A stretch of 60,786 nucleotides of DNA from Gemmatimonadaceae bacterium (GTDB lineage Bacteria > Gemmatimonadota > Gemmatimonadetes > Gemmatimonadales > Gemmatimonadaceae): positions 1-60,786 of the forward strand of contig DASXKV010000042.1 of the NCBI GenBank assembly GCA_036496605.1, in the 5' to 3' direction. Under the pieces are notes generated by a model that ran no database searches, was not told the origin of the DNA, and was given only the letters and a program-made list of their open reading frames with translations. Numbering within the stretch: position 1 is the stretch's first letter; each line of letters begins with the position of its first letter. Of the stretch, positions 1 through 15,627 are shown in pieces. The position numbers and the translations under genes are program-made.

Positions 1-393
1 CTGGTCGGCGCCGGCGACGGTGCCGAGCGTCCAGCGTTCCTGCGCAACGCCGTCCGCGTTCGTGTTCGACGAGCCGGCAAAGACGCTTCCTCCACCAGCC
101 GTGACGTGGAAGTTGACTGCCTGGCCTTGAACCGGCGTCCCGTTTGCGTCGACCACGCGGACGACGAGCGCGGTTCCGAGCTCTTGCCCGACGACACCCG
201 ACTGCGCGTCGCCCGAGACGATGACGACCTTCGAGGGAGGGCCAGCTTGGTGAGGTCCAGTCGATGAGTCTTTGCTGCAGGCTGGCAACGCGAGGAGGAG
301 AGTTGCCAGCGCGATGCGGCCCAGGCGATACGCCAAGGTTGCCCAATGCTTGCCAGGCAAGGTGAAACGGTGCTGCGCATGTAGGTGCATCAT
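1..393 (-). CDS. Partial Ig-like-domain lipoprotein (N-terminal part)
   Basis: The minus-strand frame is open from the window edge to ATG codons at 393 and 390, giving 131 visible residues; the C-terminus lies beyond position 1. The N-terminus has a basic stretch, a hydrophobic segment and a lipobox-like LPAC, so it is probably an exported lipoprotein. The rest (SGDAQSGVVGQELGTALVV, then VDANGTPVQGQAVNF and ending near GVAQERWTLGTVAGADQ) matches the first beta-sandwich of bacterial Ig-like (Big_1-type) domains, which are usually repeated in surface proteins. The specific role is unknown. It could belong to the chromosome or to the island that starts just upstream of it. Confidence 0.75.
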   Translation of the reverse strand, partial: MMHLHAQHRFTLPGKHWATLAYRLGRIALATLLLALPACSKDSSTGPHQAGPPSKVVIVSGDAQSGVVGQELGTALVVRVVDANGTPVQGQAVNFHVTAGGGSVFAGSSNTNADGVAQERWTLGTVAGADQ

Positions 394-519
394 TTGGGAT
401 CCTGCTCAGCGACAGCGGCAGCGAGGTGCCTCCGCGAAAACCGGCGCGCTAGTGCAACCTCGATATCGCGGAGACTCTATTAAAACGGCCGTTTCCTGAA
501 GCCGCCAGGACCGTGCCGT

Positions 520-547
520 ATGGTGGGGGCAGTCCCTCCCCCACCAT
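520..547. terminator. Hairpin, possible terminator
   Basis: Perfect 10-bp inverted repeat (ATGGTGGGGG / CCCCCACCAT) with an 8-nt loop, 9 bases beyond the stop of the minus-strand operon that ends at 556. There is no T-tract on either side, so it may terminate weakly or be a processing hairpin. Confidence 0.45.
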
Positions 548-555
548 ATCGACCT

Positions 556-879
556 TCACATGAGCTGCGGCGGCTCGAGAATGCTCCCCTCTCCGCGCGA
601 CTCGATGTCGACCGCTCTCCAGAGTCGTGCGGAGACGCGCTCGATGTCCGCTTCGTTCACGGCGACGCCTTCACCGAGGCGCTGGCCTTGTGGCCCGCAC
701 GCGACGAAGAGACGTCGACCGCTCAGGTCGAGGTAGGGAGCTTCGATCACGGTGTTACGATATAACCCATCTGGGCCCGGCTCCGGCGTGGGCGGGGTGG
801 CGGCATTGGCGTGCGCGCCGCCATGGAGCTTGCTCGAGCGCGACGCAGCACCCCTCGGGAATTGAAGGACGCGCGTCAT
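556..879 (-). CDS. Hypothetical protein, third gene of island operon
   Basis: A 107-residue protein whose ATG overlaps the stop of the preceding gene (ATGA at 876-879), so translation is probably coupled. The N-terminal third is rich in Ala, Gly and Pro and looks disordered; the second half (LYRNTVIEAPYLDLSGRRLF and following) looks folded. No family is recognised and there is no signal peptide or membrane segment. It is the last gene of the 1915-to-556 transcription unit and is followed by a hairpin. Confidence 0.6.
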   Translation of the reverse strand: MTRVLQFPRGAASRSSKLHGGAHANAATPPTPEPGPDGLYRNTVIEAPYLDLSGRRLFVACGPQGQRLGEGVAVNEADIERVSARLWRAVDIESRGEGSILEPPQLM

Positions 880-1445
880 GGCCGCACCTCCTGCATGCCG
901 TACCGGTCCCGAAGGGTGATTAACCAGTGAAGCGCCTCCGCTTGCAGCGTGCGGTCACCCGTGGTATGGACGCGGAGCACGAGTCGCCCCTCCGCATTTC
1001 GTAGATCCAGCGTGAGTGCGTCGTCACCTGGGCAGAGGGCATAGAAGCCACTGACACCAGGCGCGATCGGTTCGCCATCGCGTTCGGGGGTCCCGTGCTC
1101 GTTCGTTCGGCACTCCCACCCAAGTGACGGGTCACTCTTGGGCCCTTGGCCACAACCGAGTAGCTCATTCGCATAGTCGCGGCGCTCCTTCTTGAGTGCC
1201 GCTCTTTGAAACCGATTGCGCTCGTCGATATCAGGGATCTGGCGCGCCCGCGCTTCGATCTCACTCAGCCGAATAAGGCACTCGGCGTTGACGCCATCCA
1301 ACGATTTCTGCACCTTGGCGTCCCGACTGCCACGCAGCTCATCCAGGAACTGACCATACTGCCTAACGGTAGATCGCGCCTGTTCGTCAGGAGGCAGAGT
1401 GATCGTCCGCACGGGCGCGGCGAGCAGTTGCTGGCGACGCGGCAT
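876..1445 (-). CDS. Hypothetical protein, second gene of island operon
   Basis: A 189-residue soluble protein. The N-terminal half is charged and probably helical or coiled-coil (about residues 20-90, rich in Arg, Glu and Asp). The C-terminal half contains GFYALCPGDDALTLDLRN and ends in a helical ALHWLITLRDRYGM segment. Its ATG overlaps the upstream stop by one base and its stop overlaps the next ATG, so the three genes form one translationally coupled operon under the XRE operator region. No known family is recognised. Confidence 0.65.
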   Translation of the reverse strand: MPRRQQLLAAPVRTITLPPDEQARSTVRQYGQFLDELRGSRDAKVQKSLDGVNAECLIRLSEIEARARQIPDIDERNRFQRAALKKERRDYANELLGCGQGPKSDPSLGWECRTNEHGTPERDGEPIAPGVSGFYALCPGDDALTLDLRNAEGRLVLRVHTTGDRTLQAEALHWLITLRDRYGMQEVRP

Positions 1446-1915
1446 TAGCTGGCCCTCCGCACGTCCTGCATGTTCTGGGACGTCTCGGCGAGCGCGCTCC
1501 TGCCTTGCTCCGTTACGGCGAAACGAAGCGCGCAGCGATCGCGGTAGTCGTTCTCGCGCAGCGCCTGACGATGGTCGATCTCGATGAGGTGCCGCTGTGC
1601 ACGGCGCGCTGTTTCAGCGTCGGCGACGTAAACACCGGCCGCGTAGAACATGCCCCACCACGGCTGGCCATCGCGGAAAATGACCGCTCCGTCGAAGGGC
1701 TGATAGAAAGGCGACTGATGGACTGCAGGCGGAATCGCCGCGACACAGATGCGCGCTTGGTCGAAGGCGAGCCGCTGCGCTCTCGCAGACGCGGCAGCCA
1801 TTTCGCGGCGCACGTGCTCGGGCTGTGGGCCGTCAGTCGAGATCGGAAATGCGTTGGGCGCGATCTCGTTGACGCGATCGGCGAGCTCGAGGTCTTGCTC
1901 AGTTGGATCGTGCAT
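1445..1915 (-). CDS. Hypothetical protein, first gene of island operon
   Basis: A 156-residue protein with a strong Shine-Dalgarno (GAGGAGGAG just before ATG 1915), which fixes the start. The middle (HQSPFYQPFDGAVIFRDGQP, WWGMFYAAGVYVADAE) is aromatic and beta-rich; the C-terminal third is helical and basic. It is divergent from the XRE regulator at 2106 and shares the operator region at 2042-2103, so that regulator probably controls it. No function can be assigned from sequence. Confidence 0.65.
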   Translation of the reverse strand: MHDPTEQDLELADRVNEIAPNAFPISTDGPQPEHVRREMAAASARAQRLAFDQARICVAAIPPAVHQSPFYQPFDGAVIFRDGQPWWGMFYAAGVYVADAETARRAQRHLIEIDHRQALRENDYRDRCALRFAVTEQGRSALAETSQNMQDVRRAS

Positions 1916-2041
1916 GGCTCCTCCTCGGTTGCGCCCGAGGCCGGGAGCGCACTACGTTGCGCGTGCAGGCCTTCGGGTCTGTGCGAGGGGCAGTCCGGAG
2001 ACTTTCCAGGGTAGCCGGCTGCCCCTTGGTCATATCTGCGT

Positions 2042-2103
2042 ATTGCCGAATCTAGGCAATACGTCGGCTATTGTCAAGATTCGGCAATTGCCTATATTCG
2101 GCA
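2042..2103. promoter_or_regulatory. Operator array between divergent operon and XRE regulator
   Basis: ATTGCCGAAT (2042-2051) is an exact inverted copy of ATTCGGCAAT (2079-2088). TAGGCAAT (2053-2060) is an exact inverted copy of ATTGCCTA (2087-2094). ATTCGGCA recurs directly at 2096-2103, three bases before the XRE start codon. The AT-rich spacing and position just upstream of both divergent starts fit a repressor-bound, autoregulated double promoter. Confidence 0.75.
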
Positions 2104-2105
2104 GT

Positions 2106-2321
2106 ATGCGACTTCGCGTTGCCGAGATCCTCGATGAGCGCGGAATTACCGCCTACGAATTGGCGCGGCGCTCTGGCGGCCGCATAAGCTTATCAGCCGC
2201 CTATCGCTTCGGCCGAAACGAGTGGAAGTGTTTGTCCGAGGCCGTGCTCGAGGCGCTGTGCGACGTCCTCGACGTGGATCCGGGTGAGTTGCTCGAACGC
2301 GAAAAGAGGAAGCGGCGGTGA
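2106..2321 (+). CDS. XRE-family (Cro/C1-like) DNA-binding regulator
   Basis: A 71-residue single-domain helix-turn-helix protein. The visible pattern is VAEILDERGITAYELARRSG, then a recognition-helix-like stretch (SLSAAYRF), then LSEAVLEALCDVLDVDPGEL, typical of short HTH_26/XRE regulators. The ATG at 2106 is preferred to longer upstream frames because the operator array ends at 2103 and homologous small regulators begin this way. It probably represses itself and the 1915-to-556 operon. Its stop overlaps the GTG of the next gene. Confidence 0.85.
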   Translation: MRLRVAEILDERGITAYELARRSGGRISLSAAYRFGRNEWKCLSEAVLEALCDVLDVDPGELLEREKRKRR

Positions 2322-2569
2322 CAACATGGATTCAGAGCGTGGCTTCGCTGGGCGTCCTTCCATGGTGGTGGGAGATTGTGCGTTCAGTCTTGCCCGGACT
2401 GTTCGCTCTCATCGGCGCGGCCGGCGGCGGCATTTTCGCTTTGCGACGTTACAAGGGTGAGCGGGCAATCGACCGACGTCTCGATTGGCATGAGCGGATC
2501 TGTCGCGCGCTTTATAAGCTGCGTTGGCATCTCGAGGTGTCGCTCAGCCTGGGACGCGCGAGCTCATGA
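2318..2569 (+). pseudogene. Truncated membrane protein remnant
   Basis: A GTG start overlapping the XRE stop gives 83 residues: one N-terminal transmembrane segment (about residues 15-42, PWWWEIVRSVLPGLFALIGA) followed by a basic, helical stretch (RRLDWHERICRALYKLRWHL). The reading frame ends inside an exact 48-bp copy of a helix-turn-helix coding segment (2550-2597) that also occurs at 4508-4555. The natural C-terminus therefore appears to have been replaced by recombination. It may still be made as a small membrane protein co-transcribed with the regulator. Confidence 0.55.
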
Positions 2570-2597
2570 CGCGCTGGGGCGTCGGCCGTGCGACCGT
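2550..2597. repeat. 48-bp exact repeat, copy 1
   Basis: Identical to 4508-4555. It carries the codons for LGTRELMTRWGVGRATVL, the helix-turn-helix of the gene at 4404, but here in a frame that diverges at once on both sides. It is best read as a fragment of a duplicated HTH gene fused to the truncated membrane-protein gene. Confidence 0.9.
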
Positions 2598-2757
2598 CCT
2601 AGCGCGCCGGTTCAGAGCCGATCTTGGTTGGCCACGACTTCCTGATCGGGTCCCTTCGGCCTACGCCGACCAACCGAATATCCCTGAGGTCAAGAGCCAA
2701 CTGCCGTCGGCACTCGCTGACGCTGGCGTGACGCGACAGCACGAGTAGTTTCGCGGC

Positions 2758-2916
2758 ATGTCGACGATCGAGATCGCGTTGGCGCTGGCGCCCGAGGAGT
2801 GGGCGCAGCGGCGTGTGGCTGCGTTGCGATTGACGGCGTCGGAGATCTCGCGCCGGCGCGCAGGTTCGCGTGTGATCGACGTAGTGACTTCCGACCAGGT
2901 ACTCAACGGTGAGTGA
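2758..2916 (+). CDS. Small hypothetical protein (52 aa)
   Basis: An ATG start at 2758 reads 52 codons to a TGA that overlaps the GTG of the next gene (GTGAGTGA). The product is amphipathic and Arg/Ala-rich (APEEWAQRRVAALRLTASE). The tight overlap with the following gene is the main reason to believe it. Function unknown. Confidence 0.5.
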   Translation: MSTIEIALALAPEEWAQRRVAALRLTASEISRRRAGSRVIDVVTSDQVLNGE

Positions 2917-3496
2917 TTTGCCAGCTTGGATCCAGGCCGGCGCTGCTGGCGTTCAGGCGGTCGCGGCGATCACGATTTACGTTGTCACTCGGCAATACGT
3001 GGCCCTTACTCGAGAGCTTGCCGGCGCTGCGAACGAGCAATTGAAACTGAATCGCCTTAGCCAGCTCGCCGAGGATAAGCAGCGTGCTGGCGCACTTCGC
3101 GGCCGGGCAGCGGGCATTGAAGCGCGCGTTAGCGACTTGCCGGAGCAGCCGGACGATACGGCATTCCGCACGCGCGCACTATGGACTGCCGATGAGATTG
3201 ATGGCCTTCAGACTGCAGCAGCTCAGGTTTTCGGATTGGCCGCTGATGCAGCAGGCAAAGCGGCCGTCGAACTGACATGGTTGCGAGACCAAATCCAAGC
3301 GATCAGGGACGTTCCGATCAACATGGGGTACGATTACCCTCGATCCTTCCCAAACGAAGAGTGGCGCACCCGCCGCGCAGCCGCCCTTACGAGCCTCCGT
3401 GAACTCATGCAGCACGCGCTGATCTCTGCCGATCTCGCAGACAGTCAGGGAAAGCAGCTATCAGCTGCGAGCGCATTGCCGGGCAGGAGCGGATGA
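2909..3496 (+). CDS. Hypothetical membrane-anchored coiled-coil protein
   Basis: GTG start overlapping the previous gene; 195 residues. An N-terminal hydrophobic segment (about residues 8-27, AGAAGVQAVAAITIYVVTRQ) would anchor it, followed by a long helical region with the look of a coiled coil (about 28-80). The C-terminal part has YPRSFPNEEWRTRRAAAL and a further helix. This topology of one N-terminal TM plus helical cytoplasmic domain is common in island-encoded proteins of unknown role. No enzyme motif is visible. Confidence 0.6.
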   Translation: MSDLPAWIQAGAAGVQAVAAITIYVVTRQYVALTRELAGAANEQLKLNRLSQLAEDKQRAGALRGRAAGIEARVSDLPEQPDDTAFRTRALWTADEIDGLQTAAAQVFGLAADAAGKAAVELTWLRDQIQAIRDVPINMGYDYPRSFPNEEWRTRRAAALTSLRELMQHALISADLADSQGKQLSAASALPGRSG

Positions 3497-3578
3497 AGGA
3501 TAGCCCTGGCGGATGTGGCGTCGTGTCGCGAACAAAACACCGATCGCCGGTATCGACCGCCGCGCTGTAGCTGAAACC

Positions 3579-3821
3579 ATGATCGAGGTTTGGTGGACGG
3601 ATGACGAGGGCCAGCGCTGGCGCGTGACCGACGTCGTCGCCGAGACGCGAGACGGCAAGCGTGTGCCCTGGCCGGTGCAGCTCGGCGACTCCTACGCGAA
3701 GTGGCGCGTGTTCACGCGAGATGATGGGAGCGCGCGCCGGGTCTATCGATTTCGCGACGAGCAGCACGGCGTGACCGGGCCAACGAGGCGGCGGCAGTTC
3801 CTGGCGAGCGAGCCGCAGTGA
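3579..3821 (+). CDS. Small hypothetical protein
   Basis: ATG 3579 gives 80 residues beginning MIEVWWTDDEGQRWRVTDVV, with an aromatic and charged beta-rich pattern and a basic tail (TRRRQFLASEPQ). An upstream in-frame extension to 3513 is less likely because it is Arg-rich and lacks a ribosome site. It resembles small phage or island proteins that read as single beta-domains, but no family is recognised. Confidence 0.5.
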   Translation: MIEVWWTDDEGQRWRVTDVVAETRDGKRVPWPVQLGDSYAKWRVFTRDDGSARRVYRFRDEQHGVTGPTRRRQFLASEPQ

Positions 3822-3910
3822 AGATGAGAGCGCTCTAATCTTGTACGCCTGGCGAAGCTATCCGCGGCGCCACATGTTTGGGGACCCACCTCATCGGAGT
3901 TCGCTGCAGT

Positions 3911-4417
3911 ATGCGTCGCCGTCTCGCTATCACGTTTCTGCTGCTGCTGGCCGCTTGCGTCCTTCCCCAATACTCGCCACCGGCGCCGGCCGCGCCGCGA
4001 ACCGGCACTACCGTCTCGGCGTCGTTCGGCAAGACGTGGGATTCGATGATCGATGTCTTCGCGGCCCGCAACATCCAGATCAAGACGATCGACCGGGCAT
4101 CTGGCCTCATCGTAGCAGAACGCCAACGGGTCAGCGACGCCAACCCCGATGCGCTCGCTGACTGCGGCACGATGTCAAATGGCGGCGCGCATCTCTATCC
4201 GACTAACGCCGTCTGGAATGTGCTCGTCCGCGGCGACAGTAGTTCAGCAACCGTGAAAGCAACAGTGCGCTTCGCGTGGATCAATTCCGCTGCGGTTTCC
4301 GCACTTCATGTATCCGAGACTGATGCGACAAAGGAATGCGAGTCGCGCGGCGTGTGGGAGAGCGCGCTCGAACAACGCGTGAAGGCAACAGCCGAGGCCA
4401 AAAGTGCTAGCCGATGA
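3911..4417 (+). CDS. Putative lipoprotein
   Basis: The start at 3911 (MRRRLAITFLLLLAAC) gives a classic type II signal peptide with lipobox LAAC and a mature Cys at about residue 16. The mature part (about 150 residues) contains SFGKTWDSMIDVFAARNIQI and SGLIVAERQRVS, a pattern seen in BamC-like or LptE-like small outer-membrane lipoproteins that combine a conditional helix with beta-strands. The assignment is only structural. The end overlaps the GTG of the HTH gene by 14 bases. Confidence 0.65.
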   Translation: MRRRLAITFLLLLAACVLPQYSPPAPAAPRTGTTVSASFGKTWDSMIDVFAARNIQIKTIDRASGLIVAERQRVSDANPDALADCGTMSNGGAHLYPTNAVWNVLVRGDSSSATVKATVRFAWINSAAVSALHVSETDATKECESRGVWESALEQRVKATAEAKSASR

Positions 4418-4682
4418 GCGAGTTCACGTTGGATACGGGAGCGCCCTCGCAGAACTCCGCGCCGCCGCATCGCAACACGAGAGCCAGCTCCAGGCCGCGA
4501 GCTGGCTTGGGACGCGCGAGCTCATGACGCGCTGGGGCGTCGGCCGTGCGACCGTGCTCAGAATCCCGCGCGAGCAGTTGCCGTACCTGGAGTTCGGCTC
4601 GTCGAAGATGCGTCGGTATGCGCCCGACGATGTCGCGCGCTTCGAGGCCGAGCAGAAGTGCCCGGCGCAGGAGAAGGATTAG
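4404..4682 (+). CDS. Excisionase/MerR-like helix-turn-helix protein
   Basis: A GTG start at 4404 gives 92 residues. About residues 34-80 form a winged HTH of the excisionase type: ELMTRWGVGRATVLRI (helix-turn-helix), then LPYLEFGSSKMRRYAPDDVA (wing and final helix). Such proteins bend DNA in excision or act as small regulators. The N-terminal 33 residues are low-complexity. A 48-bp part of this gene is duplicated exactly at 2550-2597. Confidence 0.7.
   Translation: MLADERVHVGYGSALAELRAAASQHESQLQAASWLGTRELMTRWGVGRATVLRIPREQLPYLEFGSSKMRRYAPDDVARFEAEQKCPAQEKD
4508..4555. repeat. 48-bp exact repeat, copy 2 (in HTH gene)
   Basis: Identical to 2550-2597. Here the repeat lies inside an intact HTH gene, so this is the likely source copy. 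Confidence 0.9.
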
Positions 4683-4770
4683 AGCGCTCTCATTTTCGCT
4701 CTCCCTCTCGCGCTGCTCCGGGTCGACAGCGTAGGTTCTCGCGACCGTCGACCCGGAGCTACTCGAGATC

Positions 4771-5541
4771 ATGCCTGATGCGCACGAGGAGTTTTACCGC
4801 AGACAGCGTCAGGAAGATGAGAAAGAGAATGCATTCGCTCGCGAGCTATTCATCCGTGGGGTCGCCTTCATCCTGGATCTTCCAGGCGGGGTAAGCGCGC
4901 TGCTCAGCCGAGCGTTCGGCGAAGCGTCCAGTTATCTGGCGACGAAGCAAACCGGCCAGCTGGCGAGCCGCGTAGAGGACGTCGAAAGTCGTCTCGCTCG
5001 TTATGATGGCGGGTCGACGACGAGAATTAGCGGTGCGCGGGTTCAGCTCCTCGAAGTGACTCTGAACGCTGCGCTCCAGAAAATCTGGGACGGGGTTGAC
5101 TCTGGTGAGGCAATGATAGCGCTGGGTCTCACTCCCGATGAGTATGGTGAGGCCGCGCACGAGCTCGAGGAACTCGGCCTCGTCTACGCGGATCCGAGCG
5201 CGACCCATGCGGCCGGCATTGTTCGCACGCGGATCCGCGAAGCCGCAGCGCTGCAAGTCGGTCCGACGCTACGACCGGATATCGACTGGGAGCGTGACGT
5301 TGCGAAGATCCTGATTTCAATCGTTCGCGATCGCACGGAGGGTTACCAGTTCGCGGTGCAGACCCTCGCTGAAAAGACTGAGATCCCGCCTCCAAGGCTC
5401 AGCCTTCTACTTGATGCGCTCGAAGCGTTAGGTCTGATCGAGGGAGGCGGGCCCGGGAGCTATGAGTTTGGCTCCTTCCATTTCGTTGACCTCACGATAC
5501 GCGGCCGCCGTGTCCTCCGCGGCGACGCCTCCGTCCTCTAG
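4771..5541 (+). CDS. Hypothetical protein with C-terminal winged-helix-like region
   Basis: ATG 4771 gives 256 residues. The N-terminus is acidic and charged (HEEFYRRQRQEDEKENAF), followed by an amphipathic stretch and a helical region (about 55-75). Two helical repeats resemble winged helices: about 110-150 (ALGLTPDEYGEAAHELEELG) and about 195-240 (LAEKTEIPPPRLSLLLDALE, then GLIEGGG). The two similar helix-loop-helix-wing segments suggest a DNA- or protein-binding role. No catalytic motif is seen. It faces the minus-strand pair at 5636-7229. Confidence 0.6.
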   Translation: MPDAHEEFYRRQRQEDEKENAFARELFIRGVAFILDLPGGVSALLSRAFGEASSYLATKQTGQLASRVEDVESRLARYDGGSTTRISGARVQLLEVTLNAALQKIWDGVDSGEAMIALGLTPDEYGEAAHELEELGLVYADPSATHAAGIVRTRIREAAALQVGPTLRPDIDWERDVAKILISIVRDRTEGYQFAVQTLAEKTEIPPPRLSLLLDALEALGLIEGGGPGSYEFGSFHFVDLTIRGRRVLRGDASVL

Positions 5542-5635
5542 CGGCGCGAGACCTGATGCGCAGATGAGACCCGCACAGTCGTTGGAGTTTTGGGCAAAAG
5601 CTGAGCATGTCCTCTGTGGGAGCTAACCCTCTCGA

Positions 5636-6004
5636 CTATTCGGCGCACTGACTTCTGATGGTCTCGGGCGCCGCCTGTCGCGCGTCGTCTCGAACAGCTA
5701 CGACGTTCGCGCGCATAGGCACGATCATCGATCGATACTGGCGCTCCTTGCGCGTTGTCTTCGGATTGTAGCGCGCGAGCCCCCGCTCTGTCCACGCATC
5801 GAACCGCGATCGGAACCACGCGACGCTCTTTCCGGACCGGAGACTTGCCTCACCCTCTGATAGGAATTCTCTATACTCACCACTCGCGTTCTCGATTTCG
5901 CGAAGCATGCGCTCGCGGGCGTCCGCCTCGGCGACGTATCCGTTGCGGCGAAGCATCGCAGCTTCGGCATGATGGTCGCGCAATACTTCCTCGAGAGTCT
6001 TCAT
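5636..6004 (-). CDS. Small helical island protein, paralogue of the gene at 13739
   Basis: A 122-residue protein, fully helical by pattern: EVLRDHHAEAAMLRRNGYVA, FLSEGEASLRSGKSVAWFRS, RFDAWTERGLARYN, then a basic tail. The order and spacing (xxVLxDxxxxAxxLKxxGxxxxAxxxE, then FxxExxxxLxSGxxxxxxRxRFxxWxExGxARYN, then a basic tail) match the product at 13739-14095. The GKSVAWFRSRFDAWTERGLARYN core could be a helix-turn-helix. Only 7 bases separate it from the upstream AlbA_2 gene stop, so the two are co-transcribed. Confidence 0.7.
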   Translation of the reverse strand: MKTLEEVLRDHHAEAAMLRRNGYVAEADARERMLREIENASGEYREFLSEGEASLRSGKSVAWFRSRFDAWTERGLARYNPKTTRKERQYRSMIVPMRANVVAVRDDARQAAPETIRSQCAE

Positions 6005-6011
6005 GGACCTG

Positions 6012-7229
6012 TCAACGCTGGGGTGCAGGGATGCGAGTGCCGTCGTCGTTGTACCACGGCGAGCGCGCGAAGCCCCACGCCTGCCACATCACGTGAAAGA
6101 GCGTCCGCGCCACTGCTGGCGCTTCATCCCAGCCTGAAAGGAGCATCGGTTCGATTGGGACTTCGCCGAGACTGCTCGTCTTTTGCCCTGCTCTTCGCCC
6201 TGAGACGAGCATGACGCCGCTGACTCCGTGCAACCGCAGGCTTACGACAAGTGGCGTAGTGAGCAAGTCCTCAGCCGCGAGCTGTTGAGCTTCATCTAAC
6301 GCATGGAGCACGTCGATCTCGACGCCGAGCCCAGACAGAGAGCGATTTCCTTGGCCATCGCTCTCTGTGTTGTCGATCTGAACGCATTCGATTCCGCTTT
6401 GACGAAGCAACATCGTCCATGCGTGAGCGCCGCCTTCAACGAAAGACCCGTACTCGGCCGCCAACCCATCAAGGCCGATACGAACATTGTTCGTCGTCCA
6501 TCGAAAGGCACTTACATTGTTCCATCGCTGCTGGATCGCTCGAGGGGAAAGATCCATACCGCCGATCGGCGGGAAGAGTGGAATAAGATGAAGTGCGATG
6601 AAGTCTGCGCCTGCGCTTCCCTCCGGTTTCGCTGTGCTTAGAATGTTCGCACGATTCTCTGCGTACTCTCGAATTGCTCCCACGCGTTGCGCGATAACTT
6701 CCCGGGCGCGATCGTAGGCGGTCTCGCTTCTCATCGCGACCTCTCGGATCTGCTGGGCGTTCATCGGATCGTTGGACACCGTCCCGCGCATGTAGAACCG
6801 AGGACGATGGCTCTTCATGGTGATCATGTGCGGAGCTCGCGGACTCGCCGGCACTCGTATCACGTAGAGATAAGTGCCGTCGCCAGTAGGAATCGCTCGG
6901 TGTTGAACGTTCAGTATCCGCTCGTCGACACTGTCGCGGAGCAGATTCGTTACAGTCAGCTCGATGCGATCAGGCTGGAGCGGCATACCGCGAAGGTCGA
7001 CGATTAGCCCGCGGTCTTCGCCCTCTCCCTCGACGGCGCCGTAGAGGATCGTCCCGCCCGAAGCATTTGCCATCGCGGTGACGTCCTGAAGGAGATCGAG
7101 CTTGCCAGAGTCGCTCACGTCGAGAACCTCCTTGTAGTCGAGCGTCCGATCCTCGCGCACTCGGCGTTCGATCATGTTCCGCGCGTGCTCAACCTTCAGT
7201 TCCGTGATGGGTACGGTGCGGATTGGCAT
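6012..7229 (-). CDS. AlbA_2 / Schlafen-like domain protein
   Basis: 405 residues. About residues 20-150 match the AlbA_2 (Schlafen AlbA_2, formerly AAA_4) fold: TLDYKEVLDVSDSGKLDLLQ, DVTAMANASGGTILYGAVEG, and later FYMRGTVSNDPMNAQQIREV. Family members bind nucleic acid or ATP and are frequent in mobile islands, sometimes in anti-phage loci. The C-terminal 200 residues are not recognised; they include WNNVSAFRWTTNNVRIGLDG and may form a separate sensor. The gene is preceded by a perfect 12-bp inverted repeat. A defence role is only a possibility. Confidence 0.75.
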   Translation of the reverse strand: MPIRTVPITELKVEHARNMIERRVREDRTLDYKEVLDVSDSGKLDLLQDVTAMANASGGTILYGAVEGEGEDRGLIVDLRGMPLQPDRIELTVTNLLRDSVDERILNVQHRAIPTGDGTYLYVIRVPASPRAPHMITMKSHRPRFYMRGTVSNDPMNAQQIREVAMRSETAYDRAREVIAQRVGAIREYAENRANILSTAKPEGSAGADFIALHLIPLFPPIGGMDLSPRAIQQRWNNVSAFRWTTNNVRIGLDGLAAEYGSFVEGGAHAWTMLLRQSGIECVQIDNTESDGQGNRSLSGLGVEIDVLHALDEAQQLAAEDLLTTPLVVSLRLHGVSGVMLVSGRRAGQKTSSLGEVPIEPMLLSGWDEAPAVARTLFHVMWQAWGFARSPWYNDDGTRIPAPQR

Positions 7230-7240
7230 TCGAGAAATTT

Positions 7241-7270
7241 ACCCACAGCGTTACTCCGAACGCTGTGGGT
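7241..7270. promoter_or_regulatory. Perfect 12-bp inverted repeat between divergent genes
   Basis: ACCCACAGCGTT (7241-7252), a 6-base spacer, then AACGCTGTGGGT (7259-7270). It begins 12 bases upstream of the AlbA_2 start at 7229 and lies 48 bases before the Cys-rich gene start at 7318. It is either an operator for a dimeric repressor or an RNA hairpin in the leader of one gene. Confidence 0.7.
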
Positions 7271-7491
7271 GAGTCGAGTGGATAAGCGAGTTCTCACCCG
7301 ACGAAGACGGCTGGAGAATGCCGTACAGCGAAGCTGCGATCACCAGTCGGCAGTGCACGGCAGCTCGAGAGGATGGTAACAACTGTCGCGCCTGGGCCTG
7401 CTGGGATGACCCTGAGCAGCGATTGTCAACACCGGAATAGAATTGCGCACTTTCACCGGGAAGAATTGCACACTTGGGGTCGGGGGCGAGC

Positions 7492-8104
7492 CTAGTTCGC
7501 TGTGACCTCCTGAGTGGCGTTCCGCCGTTTGAGAGCGGAGCGATCTGGTACATTGTGCCGGGGGTGAAGCGCCGACCGGAGCTCCGCATGTTGTCGCATC
7601 CGATAGCTGTTGCCGCGGATGTTGACGATGTGACAGTGATGTACGAGGCGATCGATCAGCGCCGCCGCCATCACCTCGTCCCCAAAGATCTCGCCCCATT
7701 CCTCGAAGCCCTTGTTCGACGTGAGTACCGTCGACGCGCGCTCGTAGCGCCGCGCGATCACCTGGAAGAAGAGCATCGCGCCGGTGCGCGTGATCGGCAG
7801 ATAGCCAATCTCGTCAACGATGAGCAGACTTGGAAAGCTCAGCGTCTTGAGCCGGTGGATGAGGTGCCCCGCGGTCTGCGCCTCCTCAAGCGACGCGATC
7901 AGATCGCCTAACGTGCCGTAGTAGACCCGCCGGCCGCTCTCCGCCGCCGCAATCGCGAGACTGATCGCGAGGTGCGTCTTGCCGACCCCGGGTGGTCCGA
8001 GAAAAACGACATTCTCCTTGCGCTCGATGAAGCCTAACGTGTGCAAGCTCTCGAGCTGCTCGCGTTTGACGCTCGGCTGAAAACTGAATAGCTCGTTAGG
8101 CCCC
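7492..8104 (-). pseudogene. istB: IstB ATPase of IS21, N-terminally truncated
   Basis: IstB is the AAA+ helper ATPase of IS21 transposition. Visible motifs are a Walker A (FLGPPGVGKTHLAISLAI), Walker B (LLIVDEIGYLP), and the family end NIRGNSYRMRQ. The homologous frame opens with NELFSFQPSVKREQLESL near 8104 but has no ordinary start codon there. The roughly 60-residue helical N-terminal domain of IstB is absent, so the fusion with the istA tail is a deletion junction. The TTG at 8046 is the first possible start but would remove still more. Confidence 0.85.
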
Positions 8105-8375
8105 GGCGCTCGACCGTAATGCCCGGGAGCGCCGAGAGCATCTCTGGCAGGAGCGGCCGGACGAGACTGCGCCGGGTCGTCCGCTCCACGGGTAGCACGA
8201 GCGGCTGGTATCCATGCGGGGCGAGCGGCTGCAGCGTCCCGCGCTCGTCCGCGTCAAAGCGCTCGCGCGGCACCGCGTTGAGCGTGCGGTGCACGCGCAC
8301 ATTCGCCACCTCGTCGAGCCACCGGCGTCGCTGCTCTTCACTCAACCGACCGGGCGATCGCCCGTCTCCGGGCAA
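8034..8375 (-). pseudogene. istA: IstA transposase fragment (C-terminal)
   Basis: Only the last ~90 codons of the DDE transposase remain (LSEEQRRRWLDEVANVRVHR, then TLNAVPRERFDADERGTLQP, LVLPVERT). The catalytic DDE core is lost. After VERRGL the frame runs into sequence that belongs to istB, which marks the deletion joint between the two genes. Confidence 0.8.
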
Positions 8376-8954
8376 TTACGGCGGTCGCTTTTCAGCACAA
8401 AGCCCTATCAACGCTTACTGCACCGCTGGTCGGCGCGAAGTCTCACCCGAGTGTGCAATTCTCGCCGGTGATTCCGTGCAATTTGAACCCGGTGCTAACA
8501 GCGATGCGTCGCGCACGCTGGCCGCGGCCATCGCGGGCCGCGCTTGGCGATCACAGAGCGGAAAAGCGAGAAGACGCGCGCGGTCGCTTGCAGCTGCTCG
8601 GCCTTCGACTTCCCGCATCGGCCTGGCAGCGGCGCCTGCACGTGGCCGCACGAGTCTCCCGCCGTGGTCGAATCAACCACAGCGGTAACTGCGGAAACCA
8701 CGGTGAAAACCACGGTCGTTATTGAGAGTGATGCTGAGGTCGCACGTGCTCGAGCAGCGCGACGCGAGCGGCTGCTCCGCTTCGTGCGTCAACCGGCCTC
8801 GGAAGTCATCTAAATAGTCAACATCTTCGCTGCGAAAACACCGTCGAAAACACCGTCGGCAAGCTGCAAAAACCTGCGCGAAAAGATGCGGGTGGCCCAT
8901 GAAGGAGCGGTGAGCGTCGCGAACCCCATGGGCTTCGATCCAGTCAACGGTCAG

Positions 8955-9305
8955 CTACCATCCGCAATTACGTGTTGGCGTCTGTGGTACTGCACCGAGG
9001 ACGACGTTGGGACTTAGGACGATCCCATCTGCGAACACACAGCCAATCGCGTATTCAGTTGCGCCTCCCAACTTCGCGTAGTCGAGGCACACGTTAATGG
9101 ACCAACTCTTCGGAACGACTAAACCGTCGGCAAAGTGATAGGGCCAGTCGACGTGACATAGCTTTTGGCCTTCTTCCAAAGAACCGAGCGAGCGCTTATT
9201 CGCCGCTTCGGTTTGGATCACGCTGACGGCAATTGAACCGAGCGCCCCTATCAACGCCGCAACAGCCACCCAGTACGCACTGTCGCGACCCCTTTCGTTT
9301 GGCAT
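8955..9305 (-). CDS. Putative membrane-anchored exported protein
   Basis: ATG 9305 gives 116 residues. The N-terminus (MPNERGRDSAYWVAVAALIG then ALGSIAVSVIQT) is a single transmembrane segment or uncleaved signal. The remaining ~80 residues contain three Cys in the domain (KLCHVDWPYHFADG, INVCLDY, AIGCVFADG) plus a C-terminal NCGW, so disulphide bonds outside the cytoplasm are plausible. A longer upstream start at 9398 is less likely because it adds an Arg-rich stretch. No family is recognised. Confidence 0.55.
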   Translation of the reverse strand: MPNERGRDSAYWVAVAALIGALGSIAVSVIQTEAANKRSLGSLEEGQKLCHVDWPYHFADGLVVPKSWSINVCLDYAKLGGATEYAIGCVFADGIVLSPNVVLGAVPQTPTRNCGW

Positions 9306-9460
9306 GGCTGTCCTCCTCCGAATTCGCTTCCAGCGCACGAGGGCGGCGACCGTTCCGAGCGCGCCGTGCTGGTATAGACCTGCGCGAAATGAGTGCATTA
9401 AACAAGGGCAGAACCGCTAGGTCGACAGTGCATGAGAATTTTCTTAATCTGTTGTCGCAC

Positions 9461-9694
9461 TCAAGGCGCCAGCGGCGCACGCGCCACCGGTGGCCCCATG
9501 CAGCGCGCCGTTACAGGGATTTTCTCCCTTTCTTCTTGGCCGCTGGGCCGCTGGCAGTCGGCGCACCAACCGCGATTCCGTAGAGCGAGTACTCCCAGGC
9601 ATCTCCGGTCGCCGGCGCGGCCTATCGAGCACGTGAGTGCGAATTGCGCGTCCTCGACGACGAAATGCCGGCGACGTCGTGTGAGGTGGCCCAT
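9461..9694 (-). CDS. Possible small Cys-containing protein
   Basis: ATG 9694 gives 77 residues with a CADC pair (RGWCADCQRP), another Cys further on (TARCMGPPVA) and basic ends. The spacing CxxC...C could bind a metal. There is no convincing ribosome site, and plus-strand frames overlap it, so this call is tentative. Confidence 0.3.
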   Translation of the reverse strand: MGHLTRRRRHFVVEDAQFALTCSIGRAGDRRCLGVLALRNRGWCADCQRPSGQEEREKIPVTARCMGPPVARAPLAP

Positions 9695-9815
9695 GGAGAA
9701 TAGGAGATCGCGCCAGGACCCTATGCGTTGGGCACGACAAGCCAACGAGCTAACTCACCGGTAGCGCGCTCAAGCAGATTATGCACAGCCTATGTGTGCA
9801 GGCTTCTGGCCGCGC

Positions 9816-9849
9816 GATAGGGCAGGCTTACTTGTGCCTAGGCCCTATC
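9816..9849. terminator. Hairpin over the end of the repressor gene
   Basis: GATAGGGC-AGGC ... GCCT-AG-GCCCTATC forms an 8+4 bp stem that spans the stop codon (9828-9830) of the minus-strand repressor gene. It is likely a terminator or mRNA 3-prime end structure. Confidence 0.5.
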
Positions 9850-10517
9850 AGCCGAATGGTTGCAGCTGGGGAATAGGACCGCGTTTTCAAGAAGCGCCGC
9901 ACATGCGTCGCGAGTTCACGGCTCTGGGCAGGACTAAATCCGCTCAGCATTGCCTGGTGGATCAGACTCTTCTCCGCGATGAATTCGCGCTGGTCTTGAG
10001 CCGTCAGGAGCTCCAGCACTCGCTCGCCACGGCGCTCATTGAGCTTTCGCGCTATGCGCTCCTCCCACCAGTAGCGGACGAAGTCACTCAGCAATTCTGA
10101 GGACTCCGGGATTAGAGAGACGGCGAGTTCCTCGTCGCCCGATTCTGCCGTGCGCTCGATCTCATCAAGCACGTGACGTCGTAGGGCATCTGATAGCGCG
10201 GCTTGCGGGCGATCAGCCGAATGGTTCTCCGGACCGCCGCCGGTGAGCAGCCAATTGATGCTCAGACCCGCGCGAGCGAGTTGCAAGAGGGCCGGCGATG
10301 TTGGGGTGCTCGGATTCTTCGCGAACCAAGTCGATACGGTCGCCTTGCCCACGCCGAGTTGTTCAGCGAGGTGTTGTTGCGACTTGTAACGGGGATTCGC
10401 GCCCCTCAGGCACCACTCGCGCAGACGTTCGCGGATGGCCCTCGCCTCCTTCACCGGCAGCGACTTGATGCCTCCCTTGAGCTGCGTGCTCGAGGGCGTC
10501 CTCCGCGTTCGTGTCAT
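9828..10517 (-). CDS. CI-like phage/island repressor
   Basis: 229 residues. About residues 47-69 form a helix-turn-helix (QQHLAEQLGVGKATVSTWFA), followed by LALLQLARAGLSINWLLTGG-type sequence, characteristic of lambdoid-like repressors and their relatives. The C-terminal ~120 residues are helical; no S24/LexA Ser-Lys peptidase motif is visible, so SOS-type self-cleavage is not expected. It is divergent from the excisionase-like gene at 10629. The pair forms the usual lysogeny or maintenance switch of an integrated element. Confidence 0.75.
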   Translation of the reverse strand: MTRTRRTPSSTQLKGGIKSLPVKEARAIRERLREWCLRGANPRYKSQQHLAEQLGVGKATVSTWFAKNPSTPTSPALLQLARAGLSINWLLTGGGPENHSADRPQAALSDALRRHVLDEIERTAESGDEELAVSLIPESSELLSDFVRYWWEERIARKLNERRGERVLELLTAQDQREFIAEKSLIHQAMLSGFSPAQSRELATHVRRFLKTRSYSPAATIRLIGPRHK

Positions 10518-10528
10518 TGGTTCGGTTA

Positions 10529-10564
10529 ATTAGTCAGTCAGGTTTAGTGATCTGTCCGACTAAT
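10529..10564. promoter_or_regulatory. Operator region between repressor and excisionase
   Basis: ATTAGTC (10529-10535) is inverted exactly at GACTAAT (10558-10564), with 22 bases between. The interval 10518-10628 is far more AT-rich than its surroundings and must hold both divergent promoters. The dyad is a likely binding site for the repressor at 9828. Confidence 0.6.
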
Positions 10565-10628
10565 CTACATTTTGTCTTTCTTTCTACAAGCGTAGCTTTG
10601 CTCCGTTCGATCTTCACACGGAGGAGAT

Positions 10629-10823
10629 ATGGCAGACGAGAGAGTGTCGATCATGCGCGCGGCCGCCGCGCTGCGCCGGTCCTACAACCAGACCCTTCGT
10701 CTCGTGCTCGTAGGCGAGTTGCGGGGCGAGCAGGACGATCGGGGCCGCTGGTGGATCGACGCCGACGATCTCGCTCGTTATCTCCGCGAGCACTCGCGGC
10801 CCCAGGCCGCTGCTGTGGCCTAA
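10629..10823 (+). CDS. Excisionase/HTH_17-like small DNA-binding protein
   Basis: A GGAGGA Shine-Dalgarno 5 bases before ATG 10629 fixes the start; 64 residues. SIMRAAAALRRSYNQTLRLV is the HTH and GELRGEQDDRGRWWIDADDL the wing plus final helix, as in MerR/Xis-type proteins. It is the first gene of the plus-strand unit that ends in the integrase. It likely bends DNA for excision or regulates that operon. Confidence 0.75.
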   Translation: MADERVSIMRAAAALRRSYNQTLRLVLVGELRGEQDDRGRWWIDADDLARYLREHSRPQAAAVA

Positions 10824-10825
10824 CG

Positions 10826-12402: not shown

Positions 12403-12406
12403 ACGA

Positions 12407-13183
12407 ATGTCACTCTCTAAGCTCGATACTCACATCGCATCGCGGCCTGCCGTTTGTCCGAACTGCCGAGGTGCATCGGTCGAACTGCAATTCCATCGCG
12501 AGTGGCGTTTCATCCCGATGCGCTGTGCGAGCTGCGTGTCGGAAGAGGAGGCTCGGACTGAACGCGAACGGCACGAACAACTTTGCCGCGAACGGCTGGC
12601 CGCACTGGTGGTCCCGTCGCTTTACGGGACGGTAACGTTTGAAAACTTTGAGATCCATGGCGACGCCGAATCCAGAGCTGCGCTCGCTCGTGCTCTGGAA
12701 TACGCAAAAGCTTACGTGGTGTCGTGGCCTAACGCCCCAGTGATCAGCGTGTTCTCGGGTGCGTGTGGAACGGGGAAGGGCCACCTGGTCTGGTCGATCG
12801 CGAAAAGGCTTGCCGGTGAACGCGCCGTGCTGAGTCGCGTCGTCGTCCTTTCGGACGTTATTCGCGATCTCCGTGAGGCGTGGGGCACACACGAGAGTGG
12901 CCCCAGTGAGGCACAGCGCCTCGCGAAATACCGCTCGCCCGAATTCCTCACCGTCGACGAAGTATCTCGGCACGCCTTCTTTGGTCAGCCGCAACAGCAT
13001 CTCTATGATCTGATCGCATGGCGCGAGGAACGGCAGAAGCCGACGATCCTAACGACAAACGATCGAGGAGAGGAGCTCGTGGCTCTGCTCGGACCGGCGA
13101 TCTCGAGCCGAGCGGCCGGCTGGCGTGGATTTATCGATTTCGGCGGTGCAGACTATCGCGTTTCCTACGGGCTCCGCCGATGA
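12407..13183 (+). CDS. DnaC-like AAA+ helicase loader with zinc ribbon
   Basis: ATG 12407 gives 258 residues. An N-terminal zinc ribbon has C17-x2-C20 and C40-x2-C43. Walker A GACGTGKGH is at 118-126 with K124; Walker B FLTVDEV is at 180-186; sensor 1 ILTTND is near 214-219. This is the DnaC/DnaI type that loads the replicative helicase. The His after the Walker A Lys-Gly, in place of the usual Thr/Ser, is unusual. It starts 4 bases after the initiator-like gene and overlaps the next gene by 4 bases. Confidence 0.8.
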   Translation: MSLSKLDTHIASRPAVCPNCRGASVELQFHREWRFIPMRCASCVSEEEARTERERHEQLCRERLAALVVPSLYGTVTFENFEIHGDAESRAALARALEYAKAYVVSWPNAPVISVFSGACGTGKGHLVWSIAKRLAGERAVLSRVVVLSDVIRDLREAWGTHESGPSEAQRLAKYRSPEFLTVDEVSRHAFFGQPQQHLYDLIAWREERQKPTILTTNDRGEELVALLGPAISSRAAGWRGFIDFGGADYRVSYGLRR

Positions 13184-13742: not shown

Positions 13743-14095
13743 CGACACTCACGCTCGAGCAGGTCCTTGCCGACGCGCGCGAACACGCGAGCACGTTGAA
13801 AATCACTGGGAACTCGGGTCAGGCGGCGTATCTCGAGCAGCTTCTCGATTGCGTCGCCAGCCTCACTGAGGACGTGCGGATGTTCGTCGGCGAATCGGAT
13901 GCGGCGCTCGCGTCGGGCCTGGCCGAGAGGACGCTGCGGCGACGCTTCAACGAGTGGCTCGAGACGGGGCACGCGCGCTACAATGTGCGCAATGAGCGCG
14001 AGTACCGGCTCGATATTGTGCGGAGAAAGCCGGGTCGTGAACGCGCGATCCGCGCACGCGTGCGCCGTCGCCTAGGCCGGAGTGCGGTGACATGA
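13739..14095 (+). CDS. Small helical protein, paralogue of the gene at 5636
   Basis: 118 residues starting MTTLTLEQVLADAREHASTL, followed by GNSGQAAYLEQLLDCVASLT, FVGESDAALASGLAERTLRR, RFNEWLETGHARYNVRNERE and a very basic C-terminus. The domain order, spacing and the RF-x2-W-x-E-x-G-x-ARYN core match the product at 5636-6004. The basic tail and helix pairs suggest DNA binding. It overlaps the integrase start by 4 bases (ATGA), so a role in integration or its control is plausible. Confidence 0.75.
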   Translation: MTTLTLEQVLADAREHASTLKITGNSGQAAYLEQLLDCVASLTEDVRMFVGESDAALASGLAERTLRRRFNEWLETGHARYNVRNEREYRLDIVRRKPGRERAIRARVRRRLGRSAVT

Positions 14096-15627
14096 GCCCG
14101 AACCGGAAAGAGCTCGAGCGATTCGGCCGCCGCGGCCGCAAGGATTACGTGCGCGTCGTGCGCGAGCCGGTTCGTCGCGTCTCGCATGTGCGCGTGCTCT
14201 GGAAGGATGCGACCGGCCGGAAGGTTGAGTCGTTCCCTGATAACCGCGCGGGCATTGCCGACGCGAAGCTATTCGCCGAAACGCTTCACGAGGAGCTGCG
14301 CGCCGGCCCGTGGCAAGCCGCGCCAGCAGCGGCCGCTGAGCGACCACGCCTAACGAATCGCCAAATTCGCGAAAAGTACGAGGATGCGCACGCCGCAGAC
14401 TGGCGGTCGAAAACGCTCGTCGGATTCCGGCGACAGTGGTCGAAGTACGAGCTCTTCGCCGATCGCGACGCACCGGCCGACGCCACAACGCGCGAGTTGC
14501 TCGACCAGTTCAAAGCGCAGCTCGTCGCGCGCGGCCATTCGGTGAATCAGGTGCGGCATATCTTGCACGCGGTCATCCATGTATTTCGTTGGGCTGTCGA
14601 TCGCGATCTGATCGAGCCAACGAAAGTCACGAATTACGTCGTGAAGTTCGGCCGCGATGCGCAGCGCCAGCGCGCGGTCATGACGGAATTCAGCGCGGGC
14701 GAGCGAGAACGGATCCTCGCCCAGCTGTCGCCGCGCGAGAACCGGTTATGGCGACCGCACGTTGCGAATACACTCGTCGGCTACTGCGGCGTTCGGATCA
14801 ATGCCGCCCTCCACCTGACATGGCCTGACGTCGATTTCGCGGGCGAGCAGATCCGCTGGCGCGCGGAGACCGACAAAATGGGGAAGGAGCGCTGGCAGCC
14901 TATGCCGACGCCCGTGAAAGAGGCGCTCTGGATCGCGTATGGCTGGCGGTGCGCCGAGGAGTACACGGGACCGTTTGTGCTCTTTGGCGTCCAGCGCCGC
15001 ACGCGCGGTCACGCGCTCAAGCGGCGGGACACGCATCATGCGGTCGCCAGGACGACGCTGGAGGGCGTGACGGTGCGGGAGAAGCCCTGGACCTACTCCG
15101 CGTATGTCGCGGCCCTCCACGCGGCCGAGCGGCGCGCCGGGATCGATCCGGTGAAGTGGCGCGGTGCCCACGGATTCCGCCGCGGTATCGCCGGCGACCT
15201 GTTCGCGCGGACCGGTTCAGAGAAGACCGCAGCAGAGTGGTTAGGCGACAAGGATGTGCAGATCGTCCGCGATCACTACTTGCTCACGCGCAAAGAGGAG
15301 ATGCGCAAGCTCGCGGCGCTCGTGAGCGCGCCGGCGCCGAGCCCCGAAACAACCCGAAAGGGCGAAGCTCAAACGCTACCGAATGCAAACACCCTCGCTG
15401 TGGACGAGGGCGGAGCAGGGTTAACCCCTGAATCGACCACCTTAACAGAGAGCCAGCGGTCGGGATTGAACCGACGACCGCTCGATTACGAATCGAGTGC
15501 TCTACCACTGAGCTACGCTGGCGTTAGCAACTGCTCAATGCCCTGGCGCGGACTCGAACCGCGACGCCTTGCGGCACCACCCCCTCAAGATGGCGTGTCT
15601 ACCAATTTCACCACCAGGGCGCATTGA
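14092..15627 (+). CDS. int: Tyrosine integrase, frame running into tRNA genes
   Basis: 511 codons. SAM-like core-binding domain about residues 85-180; catalytic domain about 200-410. Visible catalytic residues: Arg in GVRINAALHLTW, Lys in TDKMGKERW, HxxR in HGFRRGIAGDL and the Tyr in RDHYLLTRKEE; the usual second His of GH is replaced (WLGDKD). After about residue 450 the frame is antisense to tRNA-Thr and tRNA-Leu (QRSGLNRRPLDYES and following). This tail is typical of integrases whose att site lies in a tRNA, so the last ~60 codons may not be original. It is the last gene of a six-gene overlapping operon. Confidence 0.9.
   Translation: MSPNRKELERFGRRGRKDYVRVVREPVRRVSHVRVLWKDATGRKVESFPDNRAGIADAKLFAETLHEELRAGPWQAAPAAAAERPRLTNRQIREKYEDAHAADWRSKTLVGFRRQWSKYELFADRDAPADATTRELLDQFKAQLVARGHSVNQVRHILHAVIHVFRWAVDRDLIEPTKVTNYVVKFGRDAQRQRAVMTEFSAGERERILAQLSPRENRLWRPHVANTLVGYCGVRINAALHLTWPDVDFAGEQIRWRAETDKMGKERWQPMPTPVKEALWIAYGWRCAEEYTGPFVLFGVQRRTRGHALKRRDTHHAVARTTLEGVTVREKPWTYSAYVAALHAAERRAGIDPVKWRGAHGFRRGIAGDLFARTGSEKTAAEWLGDKDVQIVRDHYLLTRKEEMRKLAALVSAPAPSPETTRKGEAQTLPNANTLAVDEGGAGLTPESTTLTESQRSGLNRRPLDYESSALPLSYAGVSNCSMPWRGLEPRRLAAPPPQDGVSTNFTTRAH
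15451..15522 (-). tRNA. tRNA-Thr (CGT)
   Basis: Acceptor GCCAGCG/CGCTGGC, D-arm with AGCTCAGTGGTAGAGC, anticodon stem CTCGA/TCGAG with loop TTCGTAA (anticodon CGT), T-loop TTCAATC, discriminator U. The 3-prime end abuts the island and is overlapped by the integrase reading frame. Confidence 0.97.
15539..15620 (-). tRNA. tRNA-Leu (GAG)
   Basis: Acceptor GCCCTGG/CCAGGGC, discriminator A, anticodon stem CCATC/GGTGG with loop TTGAGGG (anticodon GAG), and a long variable arm (TGCCGCAAGGCG), as expected of a class II tRNA. Confidence 0.96.

Follow-up and report, generated by a model that had tools for sequence, protein, structure and literature searches.

A three-site operator array and a retained, putatively structured leader at a divergent XRE switch in an apparent integrative element of a Gemmatimonadaceae bacterium

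Background

Is the cluster of short repeats that separates a small XRE-type regulator gene from a divergent operon of three unrecognised genes a genuine operator array, and to what kind of system does such a switch belong? The question arises from contig DASXKV010000042.1 (assembly GCA_036496605.1) of a Gemmatimonadaceae bacterium, of which the whole stretch of 60,786 nucleotides, hereafter the window, was analysed. A sequence-only reading had proposed that a divergent XRE switch is governed here by an array of three operators, made of copies of TTCGGCA/TGCCGAA and ATTGCC in the 60 bases before the XRE start, and had suggested that the regulator and the three genes form a self-contained, previously undescribed module, antitoxin-like or defence-like. 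Divergent XRE switches with arrayed operators are common, so the array alone would be ordinary. It is less ordinary that, in one genome, two switches with differing repressors and putative operators stand before the same leader and a related first gene; the same leader behind differing repressors is what an exchange of repressor cassettes would leave. If the leader is a functional RNA, it would offer an entry to post-transcriptional control in elements whose operon proteins match nothing in the searched collections.

Operator array and divergent promoters

A 19-bp dyad (ATTGCC-N7-GGCAAT) occurs in triplicate within 2042-2105, with 0, 1 and 1 mismatches, in a 65-base control stretch shared by the XRE gene and the op1-op2-op3 operon (Table 1). 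The copies had been described as both inverted and direct because TGCCGAAT is read on the plus strand in O1 and on the minus strand in O2 and O3. Centre-to-centre distances are 28 bp (O1-O2) and 17 bp (O2-O3), and O2 and O3 share 2 bp. The repeats therefore lie where they had been reported, as three in-register dyads; of the extent first given (2042-2103) the position stands and the right end does not, the array continuing 2 bases beyond 2103.

Table 1. Coordinates of the features of the switch and of its surroundings in the window
Feature	Position	Strand	Remarks
Operator O1 ATTGCCGAATCTAGGCAAT	2042..2060	none	Perfect dyad; overlies the -10 of the operon promoter
Operator O2 ATTGTCAAGATTCGGCAAT	2070..2088	none	1 mismatch; overlies both -35 hexamers
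Operator O3 ATTGCCTATATTCGGCAGT	2087..2105	none	1 mismatch; overlies the XRE -10; last base abuts the XRE ATG
Operon promoter (consensus)	2049..2077	-	-35 TTGACA (2077..2072), 17 nt, -10 TAGATT (2054..2049); 10/12 consensus
XRE promoter (consensus)	2071..2098	+	-35 TTGTCA, 16 nt, -10 TATATT; 10/12 consensus
XRE regulator	2106..2321	+	71 aa, Cro/C1-type HTH; Pfam HTH_26 44.8 bits (cut-off 22), residues 6-67
83-aa ORF	2318..2569	+	Start overlaps the XRE stop (GTGA); 3' end in a 51-bp repeat common to 4505-4555
Leader hairpin P1 (predicted)	1987..2025	-	GGGGCAGCCGG / CCGG-A-CTGCCCC; 11 bp and a bulged A
Leader hairpin P2-P3 (predicted)	1933..1979	-	Lies in the core (1928-1983, 56 nt), which is unchanged on C57
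Shine-Dalgarno-like GAGGAGG of op1	1920..1926	-	Predicted mostly paired in the full leader
op1	1445..1915	-	156 aa, no known family; 44-45% identical relative on C57, same genome
op2	876..1445	-	189 aa; orphan; TAATG overlap between its start and the op1 stop
op3	556..879	-	107 aa; orphan within the scope searched; ATGA overlap between its start and the op2 stop
Long hairpin 3' of op3	519..548	-	Without T tract; possible operon end
CI-like repressor	9828..10517	-	Second regulator in the element, 7.5 kb from the XRE switch; Phage_CI_repr 39.3 bits (cut-off 22)
DnaC-like helicase loader	12455..13183	+	phrog_50, E 5.9e-31
Tyrosine integrase	14092..15510 (ORF to 15627)	+	Runs into tRNA-Thr; 36.4 bits (cut-off 27.1)
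tRNA-Thr(CGT)	15450..15522	-	Presumed attachment gene

The dyad pattern was picked post hoc, once the sites had been seen, and with this pattern about 0.075 sites with at most one mismatch are expected per 60.8 kb (40 simulated windows) against three here in 64 bp. The whole 5.97-Mb genome contains a single perfect site; among the matches listed, at least 15 places depart from the pattern by no more than one base, O1-O3 being three of them. At up to two mismatches, the pattern is found at 180 places against 79 for the same pattern read backward. Two blind tests were also made, in which every perfect 6+6 dyad was a candidate and two further near copies were required. When overlaps were allowed there was no excess (1 of 330 window dyads qualified, against 47 dyads in 60 simulated windows). 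When the copies had to lie at least 15 bases apart, 300 simulated windows yielded 15 dyads (GC-rich in the five printed examples) and the window yielded this locus alone, so that the blind chance is about 0.05 per window, anywhere in it. The chance that such an array falls exactly on a divergent promoter pair is far less than this. A scan of 380-2400 for sigma-70-like consensus promoters, which was blind to the dyads, returned three promoters against 0.4 expected, and two of them stand back-to-back at the array with their -35 hexamers overlapping one another. The three-site operator array is real, and the divergent XRE switch that had been proposed is borne out by three dyads on a divergent promoter pair directly before the XRE start at 2106. 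The layout is that of the lambda type, with a repressor gene divergent from an operon and related operators over both promoters, the promoters being recognised by consensus only.

From the position of its -10 hexamer, we infer that the XRE transcript begins at or beside the ATG at 2106, that is, as a leaderless mRNA. An XRE homologue from another genus (genome G009, locus L006; 48% identity) has a similar spacing from -10 to ATG, CTATACTCGGCAGC-ATG against CTATATTCGGCAGT-ATG here, which was absent at the second homologue locus read (L007). The palindromes upstream of the gene at L006 differ from the window dyads, and a dyad within three mismatches was found directly upstream of the XRE homologue at none of the seven fetched homologue loci. 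At L006 we observed a perfect 11-bp palindrome (1775-1798, TATAGTGTGAG/CTCACACTATA), which is a possible operator of that homologue.

The XRE regulator and the divergent operon

The regulator consists of the HTH domain only, without a C-terminal peptidase or dimerisation domain. Its relatives were found in 18 of 79 genomes, its own included, and op1 was not found in the other 17; none was found in viral contigs, and the best match among solved structures has an E value of 0.085. The overlaps between the XRE gene and the 83-aa ORF and between the successive op genes make both sides of the array look like coupled operons. No terminator was called by the scan at the hairpin that follows op3. Behind XRE, the end of the 83-aa ORF is formed by one copy of a 51-bp direct repeat (2547-2597 and 4505-4555, 98%); the 4505-4555 copy lies within a weak HTH_17/excisionase-like gene and the 2547-2597 copy is a fragment, which suggests a past rearrangement.

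The three operon proteins match no family of Pfam, PHROGs or PADLOC. No Pfam family was obtained for op1 up to E 10, nor any PADLOC model for XRE, op1, op2 or op3 up to E 1, and NCBIfam gave chance-level matches only (op1 E 0.044, op3 E 0.073). The best match of an op1 profile to solved structures has an E value of 0.65 and the predicted structures are poor (mean pLDDT 51.4 for op1 and 46.4 for op2). No recognisable HTH protein or Cro-like antagonist was seen among op1-3, op1 having no Pfam family and a structure model that is unusable. The array thus faces three divergent genes without family, as had been noticed.

Relatives were searched within different scopes: op1 in 79 genomes, as a profile in 395 genomes of the phylum and in the genome contig collection, and in viral contigs, phages and plasmids; op2 in the 395 phylum genomes, viral contigs, phages and plasmids; and op3 in viral contigs and its own genome. 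Within these scopes the sole credible relative is op1', in the same genome. The two proteins are 0.44 identical, whereas the same number of random substitutions leaves 0.23 (maximum 0.32 in 300 trials), so op1 looks like a real protein gene. Several candidates were rejected. The op1 profile gave 45 pattern matches in the genome contig collection with no relative among them and, in the 395 genomes, its own genome and six weak matches (E 7e-4 to 0.009), all within ORFs 284-717 aa long and taken as chance; op2 gave, in the same genomes, its own and one match carrying four internal stops. The viral candidates L012 (op2) and L013 (op1) were also taken as chance, one being a short match in a 139-aa ORF and the other lying in an ORF that we read as capsid-like. 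There was no candidate for op3 in viral contigs, and tblastn of op1 and op2 against phages and plasmids gave no match. Within the collections searched, the op1-3 proteins are indeed previously undescribed.

An apparent integrative element

The switch appears to be part of an integrative, phage-like element, whose tyrosine integrase gene runs into tRNA-Thr(CGT) and which also encodes a DnaC-like helicase loader and a CI-like repressor (Table 1). The 3' 38 nt of this tRNA recur at 97% and in the same sense on another contig of the genome (C27:33534-33571). Elsewhere in the window no further copy of this 38-nt end was found, and the linkage of C27 to the present contig is therefore inferred. Read most simply, the element has tRNA-Thr as its insertion site and includes positions 1-15450; its near end would then fall in the window and its far end on C27. 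In a look for empty sites in relatives, the protein beside the C27 copy was matched in 25 of 60 genomes; tRNA-Thr was present at none of the 13 loci scanned (12 from relatives), and a DNA comparison of 15 loci matched the own genome only. The only hint of a structural gene is a weak terminase-model match at 2909-3496 (E 0.0047, 39 residues); no other phage structural or packaging gene was found among the ORFs tested, on contigs that do not span the whole element. We do not call the element an established prophage, since the contigs are unjoined, the relatives show no visible empty site and the terminase match is weak.

Several other features of these regions may be recorded. The tRNA-Thr gene stands at one end of a run of seven minus-strand tRNA genes (15450-16260: Thr, Leu, Asp, Glu, Glu, Trp, His), and the element lies at this Thr end. 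The minus strand also carries a 405-aa Schlafen/AlbA_2 domain protein (6012-7229; 44.7 bits, cut-off 25.3) and an ORF (7492-8046) with a PADLOC match to DrmD (E 2.2e-43), which we take to be an IS21-type IstB ATPase. On C27, a hairpin beside the tRNA-end copy resembles by eye an old tRNA terminator, three ORFs beside this copy had no match in PHROGs, and an open frame at the contig end (L063, 7281-8000) has no family match and contains a GDGVNDDS stretch that, to our eye, recalls pectate-lyase-like phage tail spikes. The tblastx matches between C27 and other contigs were taken as composition noise.

A second switch in the same genome

The one relative that op1 proved to have, op1' (C57:44001-44396, on a further contig of the genome, C57), also faces an XRE gene, XRE', which is followed by a tyrosine integrase gene (PHROGs E 4e-17; Pfam integrase model 16.3, below the cut-off of 27.1). 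Op1 is thus found twice, each time opposite an XRE gene, and the XRE genes and putative operators differ; homologues that never stood beside an XRE gene would have spoken against the link, and the one relative found does stand beside one. XRE and XRE' share 29% identity over 63 aa (pairwise E 6e-5). XRE' is best matched by Pfam HTH_3 (62.8 bits) and also exceeds the cut-off of HTH_26 (43.4 bits), and the two regulators are therefore distant relatives, not unrelated. Between XRE' and op1' lie two dyads of another type, TGTA-N10-TACA, a pattern picked after both had been seen on C57; it occurs exactly twice in 20 kb of this contig, both times at this place (expected 0.00), and not once in the window. 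No sigma-70-like promoter before the C57 copy passes the consensus scan. Behind op1', a 97-aa protein with two CxxC pairs (L003, 1993-2283) is weakly like DUF7562 (21.6 bits, cut-off 27) and by eye quite unlike op2.

These data bear on two other explanations of the locus. One is that XRE and op1-3 form a plain autoregulated cargo module (a 'moron'), in which the CI-like gene at 9828-10517 would run lysogeny and op1-3 would serve, for example, in host interaction or exclusion. The presence of two repressors within one element speaks for it, and with the CI-like gene 7.5 kb away the XRE switch may not be the main lysogeny switch; op1-3 also occupy the left contig end, 12 kb away from the integrase and beside an Ig-like, lipoprotein-like gene (1-393, minus strand, cut by the contig end; Big_1 35.1 bits, cut-off 34.9). 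On C57, however, the same leader and the op1 relative adjoin an integrase gene with the XRE gene between, which is the usual place of an immunity region, and we regard the cargo module as unlikely.

The other explanation is the toxin-antitoxin or defence module that had been suggested at first, with XRE as antitoxin or regulator and op1-3 as effectors. XRE antitoxins exist, the genes are small, coupled and without known family, and the best NCBIfam model of XRE' is a Y4mF/HipB-type antitoxin, albeit below its cut-off (37.9 of 71.65). Yet the family searches described above link op1-3 to no PADLOC or Pfam family and to NCBIfam at chance level only, no toxin of a known family adjoins XRE, and the XRE gene is divergent from the operon instead of being co-transcribed with it, as type II toxin-antitoxin genes usually are. 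The surroundings, with an integrase, a CI-like repressor and a helicase loader, are those of an integrative element. We therefore abandon the notion of a self-contained antitoxin- or defence-like module as very improbable.

The operon leader

From the predicted operon start at about 2042 to the op1 ATG at 1915, transcription would produce a leader of 127 nt with two predicted hairpin regions, P1 and P2-P3. Positions 1917-1996 align with the C57 copy over 81 positions at 93% identity, well above the 44% of the two proteins. P1 differs in sequence between the copies, with three compensatory double changes that keep all pairing, and both P1 copies have in common the bulged A and a CAGCC/GGACTG core. 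Its predicted pair probability is 0.98-1.0 in both. Complements as good as P1 arise in 5 and 29 of 20000 shuffles for the two copies, and the fit drops to 9 and 8 of 11 when the upstream arms are swapped between them. A covariation shuffle gave 56/500 and has no discriminating power at two sequences; one more covarying pair, at the leader base, was dropped, as it depends on the placement of one gap. The op1 ribosome-binding site is predicted to be mostly paired in both copies via different partners, which is weak evidence in such GC-rich sequence.

This leader was looked for in several collections. Rfam 15 had no match in 1-9000 of the window up to E 1. Leader DNA (E up to 0.01) was found in 37 of 395 phylum genomes, the own genome with two long copies and the other 36 with stretches of 19-42 nt. 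An RNA model, R1, matched the own and seven other genomes of the 395; its best match outside the own genome (L065) was rejected, being antisense inside an 840-aa ORF that we read as RpoB. Across nine sequence sources, R1 gave the two known copies, weak ones and matches at chance level. The exact leader core was not found in the viral contig and genome contig collections, and phage and plasmid DNA had short chance matches only.

Three explanations of the leader were considered. A short recent exchange between two resident elements would have left a recombination linker, whose folding is a by-product of high GC content; we hold this to be a serious possibility, though short of probable. The identity is sharply bounded, both copies lie in one genome, the full-length leader was not found in the other 394 of the 395 phylum genomes, and the 86-nt leader part folds alone just 2.1 standard deviations below its shuffles (z -2.1; 6 of 200 shuffles as good). 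Such an exchange leaves unexplained, however, that P1 has diverged on both arms and still pairs perfectly in both copies, and that the ribosome-binding site is kept despite the other sequence, of about 100 nt, which on C57 separates the leader from the MHDPTEQDL start common to op1 and op1'. Alternatively, P1 might be a DNA site, that is, a further operator, as an inverted repeat near a promoter that differs between copies with differing XRE proteins could suggest; since each copy already has its own type of promoter-region dyad and P1 matches neither, the bulged A and the core are common to both copies, and in the window the predicted transcription start precedes P1, we find this quite improbable.

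The third explanation is that the leader represents an undescribed class of cis-acting RNA which governs early operons across a group of integrative elements, P1 drifting and the P2-P3 core being invariant. It would have been kept while repressor and operators were exchanged, and a single RNA-level control, such as a shared ligand, an antitermination factor or op1 itself, would serve heteroimmune elements within one cell. We offer this reading tentatively and would rate it as somewhat unlikely. With two copies to judge from, the leader may act in antitermination, in translation control or not at all. It is the novel part of the locus.

Leader and op1 are kept in the two switches and the XRE gene and putative operators are other, and the repressor/operator part therefore behaves as an exchangeable immunity cassette, which suggests swapped repressor/operator modules around a retained, putatively structured leader RNA. 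Exchange of the repressor/operator cassette is known for lambda and its relatives, according to the available text of PMC8630535.

Proposed mechanism

Taken as a whole, the locus is best explained, and we think fairly probably, as the repressor/operator switch of an integrative, phage-like element with a structured operon leader and an exchangeable immunity cassette. The 71-aa XRE protein would act as a Cro/CI-type repressor and bind the three dyads between its own gene and op1-op2-op3. Occupation of O1 and O2, over the operon promoter, would keep op1-3 off while repressor is present, and occupation of O2 and O3, over the XRE promoter, would make the repressor self-limiting; as for lambda cI, the transcript of its gene probably begins with the start codon. 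On loss of the repressor, the operon would be transcribed through the 127-nt leader, with P1 first, then P2-P3 and finally the ribosome-binding site. The leader may provide a second layer of control, most likely on op1 translation. The repression part of this mechanism is proposed from the arrangement itself and from tested switches arranged likewise, and the leader-control part from two sequences.

Comparison with known systems

The leader may be likened, by description and not by sequence, to the put antiterminator RNA of phage HK022, which forms a pair of hairpins directly after an early phage promoter; two hairpins are likewise predicted after the promoter here, whereas the ribosome-binding site lies inside the present leader. 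For the switch, the obvious parallel is the lambda cI/cro right operator, where three related operators lie over two divergent promoters, the repressor gene is leaderless and the repressor limits itself via the third operator. The window has in common with it the three operators over two divergent promoters, an apparently leaderless repressor gene and a predicted self-limitation through the third operator. It differs from lambda in that XRE has only 71 aa and lacks a peptidase or dimerisation domain, in that O2 and O3 overlap by 2 bp, and in that no Cro was recognised.

The lambda right operator is summarised in PMC4488713, the available text of which also describes the immB regions of the telomere phages N15, PY54 and phiKO2, with a repressor gene, a divergent operon and one to three operators between them; PY54 has leaderless mRNAs and one operator. 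The likeness to the window is again one of layout and not of sequence, and a structured operon leader, as proposed here, is not among the features described for these regions in that text (PMC4488713).

The PaaR2/YdaS-YdaT immunity region of the cryptic prophage CP-933P from E. coli O157:H7 offers a tested case in which palindromes span two divergent promoters and the repressor is leaderless (available text of PMC8630535). In that system toxin-antitoxin genes share a transcript with the repressor and the Cro-like YdaS is encoded in the operon opposite, whereas the opposite operon of the window has no recognisable HTH protein or toxin. Alike, as far as that source describes it, are the small HTH repressor, its leaderless mRNA (here predicted), the divergent operon, the several palindromes over both promoters, the short intergenic region and the presence of a three-gene operon in an immunity region (PMC8630535). 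The switch itself belongs to a known kind; the retained leader sets the whole apart.
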